Source of the DNA: Collinsella aerofaciens
GTDB lineage: Bacteria; Actinomycetota; Coriobacteriia; Coriobacteriales; Coriobacteriaceae
Assembly: GCF_028207065.1 (NCBI RefSeq)
Contig: NZ_JAQLFP010000044.1
Coordinates: 1-11,517 of the forward strand
Direction of reading: 5' to 3'
Length of the DNA: 11,517 bases
In this document: in pieces, positions 3,516 through 11,442 of the stretch
Layout: every line of letters begins with the position of its first letter
How positions within the stretch are numbered: position 1 is the first letter of the stretch
Program-made: the position numbers and the translations under genes
Notes under the pieces: model-generated
Seen by the model: only the letters and a program-made list of their open reading frames with translations
What the model was told of the DNA's origin: nothing
Database searches by the model: none

Positions 3516-4247
3516 ATGAGTTTGATAGAACAGTTGCGAGGCGCTATGGAAGAATCGATGCACGTCGGCGAGCAGGAAACGAGTCTACAGGACCAGTCCT
3601 ACCACACCATTCGACGCAAAATCGTCTACCTGGACTACAAGCCGGGCGAAAAGCTGGGCGTCAAGCAACTTTGCGACGACCTGGATATGGGGCGCACCCC
3701 TGTGCGCGAGGCACTGGTGCGTCTGGCGCAAGAGGGCCTGGTGCGCACCGTGCCCCAGAGCGGTACCTACGTCTCACCCATCAACCTCACCCTTGCCGAG
3801 AGTGCCTGTTACATCCGCGAGCATCTGGAAAAGCAGGTGATCGTGGAATGCTGTGCGCGCGCCACGTCGGCCGGCATCGAGCAGCTCGACCGTGCCATCG
3901 CGCTGCAGGAAAAGGCCATGGCCGAAGAGGATCGCATCGGCTTCTTTTTGAGCGACAACCTCATGCATCACATGATTTTTAGCATCGCATGTCGCAGCAC
4001 CGTGTGGTCGTGGCTCGAAGAGACCAATGCCGACCTGGAGCGCTTCCGCTGGCTGCGCGCCGCCACGCAGGTTCTCGACAATCAGGACATCGTGAACGAG
4101 CACAAGCAGATTCGCCGCGCTATCGCCGGTCGCGACCCCATCGAAGCGAGCTTTTTGGTCAGCAAGCACCTGCACATGATGTTCCGCAACCAAACCGAGG
4201 TTCTGGACCAGTTCCCCGAGTACTTCGAGACCAGCAAGCTCCGCTAA
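3516..4247 (+). CDS. GntR-family transcription regulator, FadR/FCD subfamily
   Basis: A 243-residue regulator: winged helix-turn-helix at about 25-90 (LGVKQLCDDLDMGRTPVREAL is the recognition region, and SGTYVSP closes the wing), then an all-helical FCD effector domain at about 92-230. The FCD metal/ligand residues are present: Asp147 and His151 in a D-x3-H motif, His196 in NEHKQIRRAI, and His218. Members usually bind an organic acid or sugar acid and repress a neighbouring transport or catabolic gene; divergence from yeiH makes that the likely target. The start is uncertain. ATG 3516 has no clear ribosome site and could be nearly leaderless, while in-frame ATGs at 3546 (GAGG four bases before) and 3558 would trim 10 or 14 residues without touching the DNA-binding domain. 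The stop codon overlaps a repeat element. Confidence 0.9.
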   Translation: MSLIEQLRGAMEESMHVGEQETSLQDQSYHTIRRKIVYLDYKPGEKLGVKQLCDDLDMGRTPVREALVRLAQEGLVRTVPQSGTYVSPINLTLAESACYIREHLEKQVIVECCARATSAGIEQLDRAIALQEKAMAEEDRIGFFLSDNLMHHMIFSIACRSTVWSWLEETNADLERFRWLRAATQVLDNQDIVNEHKQIRRAIAGRDPIEASFLVSKHLHMMFRNQTEVLDQFPEYFETSKLR

Positions 4248-4302
4248 CCTGCCAAAAAGGGACAGGTTCATTTTGGCAGGTTTTATCTGGTCAAATGCAA
4301 AA
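4246..4302 (+). repeat. ACCTGCCAAAA hairpin repeat, copy 1 (GGGACAGG loop)
   Basis: AACCTGCCAAAA (4246-4257) and TTTTGGCAGGTT (4271-4282) are perfect 12-base inverted arms around a 13-base loop with GGGACAGG at 4259-4266. A tail TTATCTG, then AAATGC, is shared with the copies at 6640-6694 and 11388-11442. The first two bases are the last two of the gntR stop codon. On the plus strand TTTTA after the stem is weakly terminator-like. Confidence 0.85.
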
Positions 4303-4361: not shown

Positions 4362-6209
4362 CTACTCGACCGTGACGCTTTTCGCCAGGTTGCGGGGCTG
4401 GTCGACGTCGCAGCCGCGCAGGATGGCGACCTCGCGGGCGAGCAGCTGCAGCGGGACACTCGCCGTGATGGGGCTGAACACGTCGCGGACTGCCGGCACG
4501 CGGATGATGCAGTCGGCAATCTTGTTGATCTCCTCGTCGCCCTCGGTGGCAACGACGATGACCTTGGCACCGCGCGCCTTGCACTCCATAAGGTTCGACA
4601 CGGTCTTGTCGTAGGTGGCACTCTTGGTGGCCACAGCGATGACAGGGAAGCCCAGGTCGATCAGGGCAATGGGGCCGTGCTTCATCTCACCGGCGGCATA
4701 TGCCTCGGCGTGCAGGTAGCTGACCTCTTTGAGCTTGAGCGCGCCCTCGTAGGAAATAGCGGCACCCATGCCGCGACCCACAAACAGTGCGGACTGCGCG
4801 TCCTTGCACAGCAGGGCGGCCTCATGAACGGCCTCGGTTTGGGTATCCAAAATCCACTGGATCTGCTCGGCCGTATCGGAAAGCTCGCGGAACAGCATGC
4901 GCGCCTGCTTGGTGGTCAAGCGGTACTTGACCTGCGCCAGCAGCAGGGCCAGCAGCGTCAGGCTCACAACCTGGCCGATGAAGCTCTTGGTCGAGGCGAC
5001 CGCGATCTCCTTGTTGGCCTTGGTGTAGATGACGCCGTCGCTCTCACGCGCCACGGGGCTGCCCACCACGTTGGTGATGCCGAAGACCTTGGCACCCTTG
5101 ATGCGCGCATCGCGGATGGCGGCGAGAGTGTCGGCCGTCTCGCCCGACTGGGACACGGCCACGACGAGCGTCGTCGGCGTGATGATGGGGTTGCGATAGC
5201 GGAACTCGCTGGCCGCCTCCACCTCGGTGGGGATGCGAGCCCAGCCCTCAATGAGATTCTTGGCAATGAGGCCAGCGTGATAGCTGGTGCCGCAAGCGAT
5301 CACGTAGACGCGGTCGATGTCGTTGAGTTCCTCGAGCGAAAGGCCCAGCTCGTCGATGTCGAGCTCGCCGGCCGGTGTCATACGACCAACCAGCGTGTCG
5401 CGCACGACGCGCGGCTGCTCGTGAATCTCCTTGAGCATAAAGTCGGGATAACCGCCCTTTTCTGCCATGTCCAGGTCCCAGTCGATGTGGGTGACCTTGG
5501 GCTCGATAACGTTGCCGACCTCGTCGGTGTACTCGACGCCTGCGGGCGTGAGCTTGGCAAACTGACCGTCCTCGAGCACCACGACATCGCGGGTGGCGTC
5601 GATGAGCGCGATGACATCGGAGGCGACATAGGAGCCGGTTTCGCCCACGCCGACTACGATCGGGGAATCCTTGCGGGCCACGGCGATCACGCCGGGCTCG
5701 TCAGCGCACACGGCGGCCAGACCATAGGCACCGACCACGTGGGTGCAAGCCTCGCGCACGGAGGCCATCAGGTCGTGCGTCTCGGCATAGGCCTCTTCGA
5801 TCAGATGCGCGAAGACCTCGGTATCGGTCTCGCTCTTAAAGTGGTGGCCGCGGCCCTCCAGCTCTTCGCGCAGCTCGGCGAAGTTCTCGATGATGCCGTT
5901 GTGGACGATGGCGATACGACCGTCGCAGCTGGTGTGGGGATGGGCGTTAACGACGGAGGGCTTGCCGTGGGTGGCCCAACGGGTGTGGCCGATACCGCAG
6001 GTAGCGTCACTGTCGATGTTGGAAAGCTCGCTCTCCAGGCCCGCGACCTTGCCCACGCGGCGGATGACGTCGAGGTGCGCCGCGGCGCCCTCACCCACCT
6101 CGAGCGCGACGCCCGAGGAGTCATAGCCGCGATACTCCATGCGCTTAAGGCCTGTGACCAGGATGTTCTTTGCAATATCAGAGCCGGTGTAGCCGACAAT
6201 TCCGCACAT
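4362..6209 (-). CDS. glmS: Glutamine--fructose-6-phosphate aminotransferase (isomerizing)
   Basis: A 615-residue cytoplasmic enzyme that converts fructose-6-phosphate and glutamine to glucosamine-6-phosphate and glutamate, the first committed step to UDP-GlcNAc, peptidoglycan and other amino sugars. The N-terminal class II glutamine amidotransferase domain (about 2-230) begins MCGIVGYTG with nucleophile Cys2, exposed once Met1 is removed, and has GHTRWATHG (74-82) and HNGIIEN (103-109). Two SIS domains follow: the first (about 295-430) with ACGTSYHA, SQSGETADT and ASTKS; the second (about 470-605) with EGALKLKEVSYLHAEAY. Glu495, His511 and Lys610 correspond to E. coli Glu488, His504 and Lys603. 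The length is normal and the C-terminus NLAKSVTVE is intact. AAGGGA lies eight bases before the ATG. It is a single-gene unit with its own terminator, and its leader has palindromes but is too short for a glmS ribozyme. Confidence 0.98.
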   Translation of the reverse strand: MCGIVGYTGSDIAKNILVTGLKRMEYRGYDSSGVALEVGEGAAAHLDVIRRVGKVAGLESELSNIDSDATCGIGHTRWATHGKPSVVNAHPHTSCDGRIAIVHNGIIENFAELREELEGRGHHFKSETDTEVFAHLIEEAYAETHDLMASVREACTHVVGAYGLAAVCADEPGVIAVARKDSPIVVGVGETGSYVASDVIALIDATRDVVVLEDGQFAKLTPAGVEYTDEVGNVIEPKVTHIDWDLDMAEKGGYPDFMLKEIHEQPRVVRDTLVGRMTPAGELDIDELGLSLEELNDIDRVYVIACGTSYHAGLIAKNLIEGWARIPTEVEAASEFRYRNPIITPTTLVVAVSQSGETADTLAAIRDARIKGAKVFGITNVVGSPVARESDGVIYTKANKEIAVASTKSFIGQVVSLTLLALLLAQVKYRLTTKQARMLFRELSDTAEQIQWILDTQTEAVHEAALLCKDAQSALFVGRGMGAAISYEGALKLKEVSYLHAEAYAAGEMKHGPIALIDLGFPVIAVATKSATYDKTVSNLMECKARGAKVIVVATEGDEEINKIADCIIRVPAVRDVFSPITASVPLQLLAREVAILRGCDVDQPRNLAKSVTVE

Positions 6210-6279
6210 AGGATAAATCCCTTCGTCCGCGTGACTGCAAAACGCCCACGCACAAGGGGCGCTGAGACGTATAACGTTC

Positions 6280-6343
6280 GAGTATTGTACTCACGCAAGT
6301 GCAAGCTGATATACCAGAAGTGGTATCTCAACTTAGATACCAC
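6280..6343 (-). promoter_or_regulatory. glmS upstream palindromes and candidate promoter
   Basis: On the minus strand TACAAT (6289-6284) is a good -10; no strong -35 is visible. It lies inside a small palindrome GAGTA/TACTC (6280-6292). Farther upstream two overlapping inverted repeats share a half: ATACCA/TGGTAT (6311-6326) and GTGGTATCT/AGATACCAC (6320-6343). TGGTAT/ATACCA half-sites resemble those bound by HutC-type GntR regulators such as NagR/DasR, which control amino-sugar genes, but the spacing differs from the classical site. An operator controlling glmS is a reasonable guess, not a demonstration. Confidence 0.4.
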
Positions 6344-6356
6344 CCGATGCACACAC

Positions 6357-6403
6357 GTCCAAACCACCACGATGGGGACAGGCACCTTTGTGGTGGTTTG
6401 GAC
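6357..6403 (+). repeat. AAACCACCAC hairpin repeat, plus-orientation copy (GGGGACAGG loop)
   Basis: GTCCAAACCACCAC (6357-6370) and GTGGTGGTTTGGAC (6390-6403) are perfect 14-base arms around a 19-base loop containing GGGGACAGGCACC. The loop core is the one found in the ACCTGCCAAAA repeats, but the arms are unrelated. A second copy lies inverted at 6588-6626. Confidence 0.85.
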
Positions 6404-6428
6404 CGGGGCGGCGGCCTATCCCGGCGAA

Positions 6429-6489
6429 AGATCTCAATCTGTAACATCTGGGCCGCAATAAGCCGGCTTAGTGTTACAGATCGAGACAT
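6429..6489 (+). repeat. TGTTACAGATCGAGAC hairpin element, plus-orientation copy
   Basis: An arm with two mismatches at 6430-6446 (reading GATCTCAATCTGTAACA) pairs with TGTTACAGATCGAGAC at 6472-6487 across about 25 bases that include GGCCGCAA and GCCGGC. The element 6510-6569 is a diverged copy in the opposite orientation: on its minus strand the internal spacer aligns with this one (GGxCxGCAA followed by C-rich bases). Confidence 0.75.
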
Positions 6490-6509
6490 TACGGTTCGGC
6501 CCCAGCACT

Positions 6510-6569
6510 ATGTCTCGATCCGTAACAGGTAGAGGCGGTTTTGCCGTCCAGATGTTACAGATCGAGACA
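6510..6569 (-). repeat. TGTTACAGATCGAGAC hairpin element, minus-orientation copy
   Basis: ATGTCTCGATCCGTAACA (6510-6527) pairs with TGTTACAGATCGAGACA (6553-6569), with one mismatch in the arms, around a spacer that contains GGCGGTTTTGCCGT. It faces the copy at 6429-6489, so arms 6472-6489 and 6510-6527 can also pair with each other, giving alternative structures. There is no GGGACAGG core in this family. Confidence 0.75.
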
Positions 6570-6587
6570 ATTGAAGGCCCGGGCGTC

Positions 6588-6626
6588 TCAAACCACCACA
6601 AAGGTGCCTGTCCCCTTCGTAGTGGT
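6588..6626 (-). repeat. AAACCACCAC hairpin repeat, minus-orientation copy
   Basis: Reading on the minus strand, ACCACTAC, then GGGGACAGGCACC, then TTTGTGGTGGTTTG matches the copy at 6357-6403 almost base for base through the loop and right arm. The left arm has decayed (GTAGTGGT at 6619-6626 pairs with ACCACCAC at 6592-6599 with one mismatch) and the outer GTCC/GGAC pairs are lost. Confidence 0.8.
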
Positions 6627-6639
6627 CGCGCTGGCAACG

Positions 6640-6694
6640 GCGTTTTCGCAGATAAAACCTGCCAAAATAAACCTGTCCCTAATTGGCAGGTTTT
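6640..6694 (-). repeat. ACCTGCCAAAA hairpin repeat, copy 2 (minus orientation)
   Basis: AAAACCTGCCAA (6654-6665) and TTGGCAGGTTTT (6683-6694) are perfect 12-base arms. The loop on the minus strand has AGGGACAGGTTTATT, and the tail after the stem reads ATCTGCGAAAACGCC, as in copies 1 and 3. The last two bases of the right arm are the first two of the TTGACA -35 box of the lacI-family gene. Confidence 0.85.
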
Positions 6695-6723
6695 GACACC
6701 CTGGGGGCGGGCGATGCTACAAT
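6693..6723 (+). promoter_or_regulatory. Promoter of the LacI-family gene
   Basis: A consensus -35 TTGACA (6693-6698) and a -10 TACAAT (6718-6723) with an extended TG at 6715-6716 are separated by 19 bases. The spacing is long, but the extended -10 should compensate. Transcription would start near 6730, which rules out the in-frame ATG at 6714 and supports the start at 6759. The -35 overlaps the end of a repeat element. Confidence 0.75.
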
Positions 6724-6734
6724 CGGACTTGTAC

Positions 6735-6748
6735 TTGAAACGCATCAA
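6735..6748. promoter_or_regulatory. Candidate LacI-type operator for autoregulation
   Basis: TTGAAACGCATCAA has TTGA/TCAA arms around a central CG, the layout of LacI-family operators. It sits just downstream of the predicted transcription start, where a bound repressor would block its own gene. Inner positions are not symmetric, so confidence is modest. Confidence 0.4.
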
Positions 6749-6758
6749 AGGGGCCGCC

Positions 6759-7892
6759 ATGGCAAAGGTAAAAATCAGCGACGTCGCGCGCGAGGCCGGG
6801 GTTTCGTTGGGCACGGTTTCCAACGCGCTCAACCACCCCGAAAAGCTGCGCCCCGAGACCCTCAAGCTCATCAACGAGACCATCAATCGCCTTGGCTACC
6901 TGCCCAACCAAAGCGCTCGCCAGCTGGCCGGCGGCACCACTAAGTCCTTTGGCCTTGTCCTCCCCCGTCTCGATCACGGCTTTTCGCTCCAGATTGCCAG
7001 CGGTGCCCACAACGAGGCACGCAAGCACGGCTATGACTTGCTCATCGCCAATGCCGATAACGACGACATTCTCGAGGATCATTACCTGCGCTATTTTATG
7101 GGCACGCAGATGTCCGGCGTCATGGTTCAGCCCATGGCGTCCCTCGATTGGCACCCCGCCATGACCAAGATTCCCGTCCCCATCGTCCATCTGGACGTCC
7201 ATTGTTCAGAACCCGGTTACTACGTGGCCGCCGACAACGAGGCACAGGGGCGCATTATCGCCGAGCTCGCCATCGCCCGCGGCGCACACCGCATCGTCGT
7301 TGTAGGCCGAGCGGCATTTATGCAGCTCACCCTGCGCGTCCTTGGCATCCACAAGGCACTTGCCCTGCATCCCGATATCAAAATTGAGGTCATCGATGCC
7401 GGAGAGTGGAATACCGCAGCCGACGGCTACAGCATCGGTACCCAGATTGCCGAACGCCCTGCTGACGAGCGCCCCGATTTTGTCATCGGCCTGACTGACG
7501 TATTGGCCTCGGGCGTTATCTCGGCGCTGACCGACAAGGGCATTTCCGTCCCCGGCCAGATTCTTGTTGCCGGCTGCGATGGCAACCCGCTTGCCTGGAG
7601 CGGATCGGTACCCCTCACCACGGTTGCACCACCGGGCTACGAGATCGGCCGCAAGGGCGTGCAGCTGCTCATGGAACAAATCGAGGATAAACCTGCCGCC
7701 AAGACCAAACGAGTCCGCATCGGCTCCGCCGCGCGCACCGTCACCACGGTCACGGCCACCGAGGACATTAATCGTCAGGAGCTCGTGCGCCCCTTCTTGC
7801 TCGAGCGTGTGAGCACCCAAAAAGCCGAGCAGCACCCGACGGGCCCATCCGCGGCCCCAATAACCGACATCAACCTGGGCGCCTACTTGTAA
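6759..7892 (+). CDS. LacI-family transcription regulator
   Basis: A 377-residue LacI/GalR-type regulator. The N-terminal helix-turn-helix (5-24, ISDVAREAGVSLGTVSNALN) and hinge (about 50-60) are typical. A periplasmic-binding-protein-like sugar domain follows (about 62-335), with GLTDVLASGV (244-253) at the usual ligand-contacting loop and VAGCDG (270-275) near the end. The last 35-40 residues (from about 338) are a tail beyond the normal family length of roughly 340, ending in a Pro/Ala-rich stretch. AAGGGG lies five bases before the ATG at 6759; longer readings of the frame start upstream of the promoter. No transporter or glycosidase adjoins it, so the controlled genes are probably elsewhere. 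Divergence from glmS over 549 bases makes direct control of glmS possible but unsupported. Confidence 0.92.
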   Translation: MAKVKISDVAREAGVSLGTVSNALNHPEKLRPETLKLINETINRLGYLPNQSARQLAGGTTKSFGLVLPRLDHGFSLQIASGAHNEARKHGYDLLIANADNDDILEDHYLRYFMGTQMSGVMVQPMASLDWHPAMTKIPVPIVHLDVHCSEPGYYVAADNEAQGRIIAELAIARGAHRIVVVGRAAFMQLTLRVLGIHKALALHPDIKIEVIDAGEWNTAADGYSIGTQIAERPADERPDFVIGLTDVLASGVISALTDKGISVPGQILVAGCDGNPLAWSGSVPLTTVAPPGYEIGRKGVQLLMEQIEDKPAAKTKRVRIGSAARTVTTVTATEDINRQELVRPFLLERVSTQKAEQHPTGPSAAPITDINLGAYL

Positions 7893-11238: not shown

Positions 11239-11387
11239 CGCTCGGCGCTGCGCAGGCCCCGGGCACGGCAATCTGACGTTCACCTGCACGGGCGCGACCA
11301 AAAGGTCAGCGCCCGCTTGTTTCACGTCACCTTGCCGCACCCGGAGCCCGCTCGCTCGCATATGCACAACCTGGACTGCGTTAACTG
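11239..11387. other. Non-coding stretch with one further hairpin
   Basis: I see no gene here. GGGCGCGACC (11290-11299) pairs with GGTC, one bulged A, then GCGCCC (11304-11314) around AAAA, and an outer TGACGT/ACGTCA pair (11274-11279 and 11324-11329) could close a larger 56-base structure. No T-run follows. The rest is GC-rich sequence with no motif I recognise. Confidence 0.45.
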
Positions 11388-11442
11388 ACCTGTCAAAAAG
11401 GGACAGGTTTATTTTGGCAGGTTTTATCTGGGGAAACGCAAT
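11388..11442 (+). repeat. ACCTGCCAAAA hairpin repeat, copy 3
   Basis: ACCTGTCAAAA (11388-11398) pairs with TTTTGGCAGGT (11412-11422) with one G-T wobble around a 13-base loop carrying GGGACAGG. The tail TTTATCTG, then AAACGC, matches copies 1 and 2. It is nearly identical to copy 1 across about 55 bases, although the two sit about 7.1 kb apart beside unrelated genes. Confidence 0.88.

Follow-up and report, generated by a model that had tools for sequence, protein, structure and literature searches.

Three dispersed repeat families form a nested mirror-image array between glmS and lacI in Collinsella aerofaciens: a probable REP/BIME-type mosaic

Introduction

The window analyzed here is an 11,517-nt stretch of Collinsella aerofaciens DNA in which positions 6357–6694 hold a mirror-image array of short palindromes between two genes. 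The locus raises the question of whether such an array is a mobile unit, a regulatory device of the neighboring genes or a patchwork of repeats that occur throughout the genome. According to the initial annotation, it resembles a composite REP/BIME-type mosaic or a non-autonomous mobile element that arose when one element inserted into another. The array was compared with 43 genomes of the genus and with an order sample of 297 genomes from 107 genera. The genome closest to the window (G001) has 47% of the sampled words in common with it. Among the named records retrieved, the best glmS match was to a Collinsella sp. record (84% identity).

Architecture and predicted folding of the array

The left neighbor (4362–6209, − strand) is glmS-like, with SIS and glutamine amidotransferase domains, and the right neighbor (6759–7892, + strand) was identified by a domain match as a LacI-family regulator. 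The two genes are divergent, and the domain matches of both confirm that the array sits between glmS and lacI as annotated. Its elements, here called A, B and C, run in the order A(+), B− B+ B− B+, A(−), C(−).

The forward A element (6357–6403, + strand) has 19-nt arms and carries GGGGACAGG in its + strand loop, and positions 6363–6397 match the A pattern with 0 mismatches. The first B dyad (6430–6488) consists of a B− site at 6430–6446 (3 mismatches to the B pattern) and a B+ site at 6472–6488 (0 mismatches). It is followed, after a gap of 22 bp, by the second dyad (6511–6569), with B− at 6511–6527 (1 mismatch) and B+ at 6553–6569 (0 mismatches); the spacer within each dyad is 25 bp. The reverse A element (6589–6626, − strand) matches its pattern at 6592–6626 with 1 mismatch and forms a weak hairpin alone. 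The C element (6654–6694, − strand) has perfect 12-nt arms around a GGGACAGG loop and matches its pattern at 6657–6691 with 2 mismatches. Two further C copies lie in the window on the + strand: a pattern match at 11385–11441 and a copy at 4244–4300, which overlaps the end of a GntR/FCD gene at 4247 and supplies its TAA stop codon.

A program search for nested inverted repeats recovered A arms of 38 nt with 95% complementarity enclosing B arms of 58 nt with 78% complementarity. The mirror-image structure is true and non-random. The nested array of three families is thus borne out by pattern matches and inverted-repeat search, and the families and positions in the annotated element list stand; the B elements had been miscounted, as there are four sites (− + − +) forming two dyads rather than one (+) and one (−) element.

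Each element had also been said to fold alone. When folded as DNA, four of the five hairpins were better than all 200 shuffles, the exception being the right A hairpin, for which the z-score was −1.4 and 19 of 200 shuffles were equally good. The large hairpin or cruciform proposed for the region holds as a folding prediction: the 270-nt A–B–A core is predicted to fold at −93.5 kcal/mol as DNA (z −15) and at −162.4 as RNA (z −16), with 0 of 200 shuffles as good in either case.

Upstream of glmS, positions 6308–6345 contain the overlapping inverted repeats ATACCAGAAGTGGTAT and TGGTATCTCAACTTAGATACCA, the latter at 6324–6345. A similar TGGTAT...ATACCA arrangement is present in G020 and G040, making this a candidate operator.

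Copy number and taxonomic spread

Twenty-two of the 43 genus genomes are rich in all three families, with 14–37 copies of A, 24–61 sites of B and 19–43 copies of C. Counted by presence, A was found in 23 genomes, B in 23 and C in 22; the stray matches outside the rich genomes amount to a lone A (G038), three B sites (G029) and one B dyad (G037). In the order sample, B dyads occurred in 23 of 297 genomes, all from one genus of the 107. The single-contig genome G003 holds 32 copies of A and 31 of C (at most 3 mismatches) and 46 B sites (1 mismatch), which were grouped manually into 18 clusters. Reversed-pattern controls gave 0 among the matches listed. In one dispersal survey, scoring covered at most 16 candidates in each genome. 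No element proved unique to the locus when the segment and its elements were searched for in relatives, and A, B and C are dispersed and lineage-restricted.

The B clusters of G003 are unevenly placed, 5 of the 18 falling inside about 43 kb (1,050,000–1,093,000). Contig 9 of G004 also has several close clusters.

A and C elements and Y1 transposases

A and C follow a common plan, in which a family-specific stem surrounds a loop with GGGACAGG. The A motif is GGGGACAG; that of C is AGGGACAG in most listed copies, one letter off GGGGWSAS, and GGGGACAG in some. By manual count, and with genes called mechanically, 15 of the 25 G003 copies of A without B lie at most 30 bp from a stop codon, 13 of these 15 in the direction of the gene.

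Y1 transposase domains (Y1_Tnp, PF01797) gave 85 matches in 37 of the 43 genus genomes, ordinary IS200-type genes included. A 322-aa Y1_Tnp frame lies between inverted C copies in G034 (L227) and G010 (L229), as does a truncated frame in G004 (L228), so that the C transposase was located in three of the 22 C-carrying genomes, one of them with a truncated gene. At L227–L229, the C copy upstream of the C transposase starts at TAA, as does the copy overlapping the GntR/FCD gene in the window.

More widely, manual reading found repeats whose core is of the GGGAC(A/G)G type on at least one side of 21 of 33 Y1_Tnp loci (8/15 and 13/18); for two loci, L226 and L230, a single side was visible. When 16 further loci (L164, L238 and L411–L424) were scanned for such a core, it was found in seven, one of them MQRVW-like. 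The transposase types differ in the stems of their flanking repeats, and at L149 the palindromes have no core of this type. A Pfam helix-turn-helix was matched in L160, L236 and L159, partly below the cut-off, and is missing from the C transposase of L227.

The flanks of 64 loci were scanned for the A, B and C motifs; they represent 63 places of the 85 Y1_Tnp matches and, in the 22 rich genomes, cover every match except six of ordinary IS200 type. Neither A nor B was found near Y1_Tnp at any of the 64, and C was found at the three loci named above only. Likewise, no A-flanked transposase was present within the stretch examined in G038. Judged by its place around Y1_Tnp genes, C is a new TIRYT-type repeat family, with a motif that is one letter off in most listed copies. 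As no A motif lies around the 64 loci, A is likened to the TIRYT class by motif and plan and is not filed as a member.

Several side observations concern these repeats. No clear flanking repeats were seen at the 11 loci of the MQRVW-type Y1 transposase that were read. In five of these (L233, L234, L235, L236 and L239), one or both HUH histidines are lost with the frame open. Twenty of the 22 repeat-rich genomes have this type, which may be domesticated or decaying. IS-like ends (TGAACTGC...CCC) lie inside A cores at L113 (the glmS–lacI gap of G001), L125, L183 and L303, at the identical point in three of the four loci, and the frame beside the end at L125 matches transposase helix-turn-helix families. 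Targeting of REPs by insertion sequences is described in part of the earlier literature (PMC1525189). At one site in nine genomes (L291, L295, L297, L305, L310, L314, L316, L318 and L319), a C-like left stem and an A right stem are joined at the GGGACAGG core, a chimera that may have arisen at the core by recombination or by transposase-mediated exchange.

Organization of the B arrays

B consists of 17-bp sites in alternating orientation, separated by spacers of near-fixed length. Counting site pairs at most 48 bp apart, 206 of 214 distinct segments have an inner spacer of exactly 25 bp, and six of the remaining eight are overlapping calls. The spacer between dyads measures 21 bp (70 cases), 22 bp (49) or 20 bp (2), so that all 121 fall within 20–22 bp. 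The resulting geometry is 42 bp from site to site in a dyad and a period of about 80 bp. Apart from A/T at the center and TAG/CTA near the ends, the spacer varies in sequence.

The two arms of a dyad vary independently, and among 91 non-redundant dyads, pairing did not rise above shuffles at any arm position. In the larger redundant set, one of the 17 inner positions had a paired double change in 2 of 214 segments (shuffle maximum 1), and at the other inner positions paired double changes were not above shuffles. Because the arms lack covariation, B as a structured RNA was set aside. An apparent avoidance of pairing in the B spacers (z −5.8 for 77 spacers) fell to z −1.2 with the 27 strictly different spacers and was not used, as the signal had gone.

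Fifteen B clusters of G003 were placed relative to genes by manual count: eight lie between convergent, five between tandem and two between divergent frames. The flanking genes are mechanically called open frames, some of which look antisense at the B clusters, and no neighbor common to the 15 was noticed by eye.

One orthologous B locus has one, two or more dyads depending on the genome. Its single dyads (G001, G005, G024 and others) join the left half of dyad 1 to the right half of dyad 2 of the two-dyad relatives G004 and G009. These half-dyad joins suggest that the arrays change by whole periods, and exchange between B copies seems to be placed near the A/T-rich center of the spacer.

BIMEs are bound by gyrase or IHF. 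The B arrays might be sites of a putative sequence-specific DNA-binding protein that aligns them at a set helical phase. This reading, which concerns B only and is compatible with a mosaic origin of the array, is a tentative possibility that we hold to be less likely than not. The near-constant inner and outer spacers, the conservation of single sites with arms essentially free of compensation, and the constant features of the spacer center and ends speak for it; nevertheless, fixed spacing could also come from in-register exchange between copies. A bolder version appears doubtful: B would be a new class of alternating 17-bp sites at fixed helical spacing, kept as sequence and not as hairpin, and would serve as the platform of a putative chromosome-organizing protein specific to this lineage, possibly the MQRVW-type transposase in a domesticated form that has partly lost HUH.

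Junctions between A and B

Junctions were searched for with patterns that ignore the loop and require an exact stem plus the B pattern, which gave 41 and 35 places; 60 loci of these 76 junction places were analyzed. They contain 61 distinct A–B junctions, which sort into 21 linker groups; each side of a B array is counted as its own group. Nineteen groups have one outer-flank family each, representing one orthologous site in several genomes or a single member. One group is split by L303 alone, where an insertion-sequence end forms the outer flank. In the last, with an 11-nt linker (TTTCGGTCTGT), L265, L278 and L286 differ in outer flank from L285 and L269; the linker of L285 is identical and that of L269 merely loosely alike, and a shared A–B unit may exist there.

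These junctions bear on the possibility that A–B–A is a single non-autonomous transposon, with A as terminal inverted repeats, B as cargo and mobilization by an A-specific transposase. A manual tally of 68 junction rows (seven of which repeat places already in overlapping loci) has A pointing to B in 44, away from it in seven and in no clear direction in 17, a bias that resembles inverted repeats around transposase genes. Moreover, G003 has a second site, L253, with A on both sides of B, and the 11-nt linker recurs with unlike outer flanks. Nevertheless, the orientation bias may follow from the preference of A for lying behind genes in gene direction, given that eight of 15 B clusters sit between convergent frames. 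In some linker groups, the orientation of A differs between orthologues (L264 versus L270; L261 and L267 versus L282). Within the stretches examined, 13 of the 18 B clusters of G003 are without an A, and the 64 Y1_Tnp loci include no A-flanked transposase gene. The same ends and junctions at unrelated sites, as a composite transposon would leave, were not found, the short linker being the one exception. We therefore consider a single transposon improbable.

The two assembly routes of the initial annotation fare accordingly. Insertion of one element into another finds no support, as both A copies beside B are complete hairpins and not split halves, and there are 21 linker groups. A single non-autonomous mobile element is disfavored in that, apart from the site altered by an insertion sequence, unlike outer flanks share just one 11-nt linker. 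With 19 of the 21 groups confined to a single outer flank, A and B have been brought together repeatedly and independently, and the three families appear not to travel as one unit.

The glmS–lacI gap in relatives

The gap was compared in 22 sequences, namely the window and 21 genomes of its clade. Five carry the A–B–A composite with alike linkers (the window, G003, G004, G019 and G035), 10 carry a single A(−) and three a single A(+) (G006, G011 and G031). In a further three (G012, G032 and G034), a single A(+)-like element is present and lacI does not start within 1.5 kb, and the gap of G001 is broken at an A-like core, apparently by an insertion sequence. Eighteen gaps extend to lacI, and 17 of them, all but that of G011, contain C. 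In the more distant species G020 and G040, the gap to a lacI-like start has no A, B or C in the glmS stretch examined. Sister strains thus differ by presence or absence of the B-bearing segment, with the composite in 5/22 and a single A of either orientation in 13/22.

The A(+) loops of G006, G031 and G011 contain AAT, as in the left A of the composites of G003 and G004. In G006, the left part and loop of A(+) are joined to the right stem and flank of A(−), which matches the expected deletion product. Both single-A types would be the expected leftovers of deletion between the stems of the composite's A copies. The single A(−) of G013 has a right flank of A(+) type, which suggests that loop inversion may occur too.

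The fewest changes of state are five on the glmS tree and three on the lacI tree. A single clade of composites is rejected by the glmS tree (p 0.0002) and not by the lacI tree (p 0.15). This conflict suggests recombination between the two genes, which is likely, and composites may also have passed between strains by recombination. The trees leave the direction of change undecided, and A(−) alone could be the older state.

The variation among relatives also bears on the possibility that selection keeps the region as a regulatory RNA, an attenuator or an insulator for the gap. The region's position between two genes and near the glmS-side inverted repeat TGGTATCTCAACTTAGATACCA (6324–6345) would suit such a role, as would the frequent location of A hairpins behind stop codons. 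Nevertheless, the composite is absent from 17 of the 22 sequences, G020 and G040 do without any element, and the B arms show no covariation. In Rfam, no family reached the gathering score in the window; at a lax threshold, the window segment and six B loci gave weak, unrelated matches, mostly to microRNA families. Consensus scans found no promoter and, over 6180–6800, no terminator. A selected regulatory function is thus very improbable, and any effect of the composite on glmS or lacI would be conjecture.

Proposed origin of the array

Taken together, the array is probably a REP/BIME-type mosaic, in which A and C are TIRYT-like repeats spread by Y1 transposases, B is a separate array, the families meet in shared niches and the composite decays through its A stems. 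The Y1 (HUH) transposases would probably spread A and C in trans as single-stranded hairpins. B would grow and shrink by whole periods of about 80 bp through in-register exchange, and A, B and C may adjoin because they share intergenic niches. At the base of A–B–A, the A stems would act as direct repeats, deletion between which would leave a single A in either orientation.

The range of GGGGACAG-type transposase-linked repeats now extends to an abundant human gut lineage. The transposase–repeat pairs can be used for asking what the enzymes recognize, stem or loop core, and the glmS–lacI allele series is natural material on the shrinkage of long repeat-built palindromes. As clean and lineage-specific targets, the B arrays could help to identify a new DNA-binding protein.

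Comparison with known systems

Searches of one literature library on Collinsella REPs, on Collinsella aerofaciens palindromes or transposases and on GGGGACAG with RAYT yielded no report of A, B or C. None was found in the parts of PMC7771070 and PMC8040213 drawn on here, and Collinsella is unmentioned in the main texts of PMC3733652 and PMC6006769.

A and C come closest to the TIRYT repeats. In the sections drawn on here, TIRYT genes are described as flanked by repeats, some of which share GGGGWSAS (Di Nocera 2013, PMC3733652; PMC6006769), and TIRYTs or TIRtrons are placed with the subclass 2.1 Y1 transposases (PMC6006769). As far as those descriptions go, the likeness includes the A motif GGGGACAG and the prevailing C motif AGGGACAG, both close to GGGGWSAS, the dispersed copies and the inverted C repeats around a Y1_Tnp gene (L227, L228 and L229). 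A C-terminal helix-turn-helix is matched, partly below the cut-off, in some relatives in the genus and not in the C transposase of L227. The repeats differ in that the motif here lies in the loop of the hairpin and the stem varies by family.

B constitutes a new lineage-specific family with a likeness to both BIME and REPIN. BIMEs are portrayed, in the part of the source used, as mosaics of REPs (PMC2817692), and the array agrees with that portrayal in its adjoining palindrome families, alternating orientation, regular spacing and change in B copy number. In contrast, no GTAG tag marks the foot of a perfect palindrome in B, and its spacers vary in sequence and hardly in length. Like REPINs, as outlined in the portion of Bertels and Rainey (2011, PMC3116915) drawn on, B consists of inverted pairs of conserved sites of about 16–17 bp around a less conserved spacer of set length. 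Compensatory changes are there reported as common in REPIN arms, whereas the 91 non-redundant B dyads show none beyond shuffles. As to a cognate RAYT, the 64 Y1_Tnp loci have no B motif around them, and a distant gene could act in trans.

The composite REP/BIME-type mosaic of dispersed elements that had been proposed for this locus is therefore upheld by the copy numbers, the alternating array and the variation of the gap. The patchwork adds a new case to a known class of genomic repeat and is not a new kind of element.
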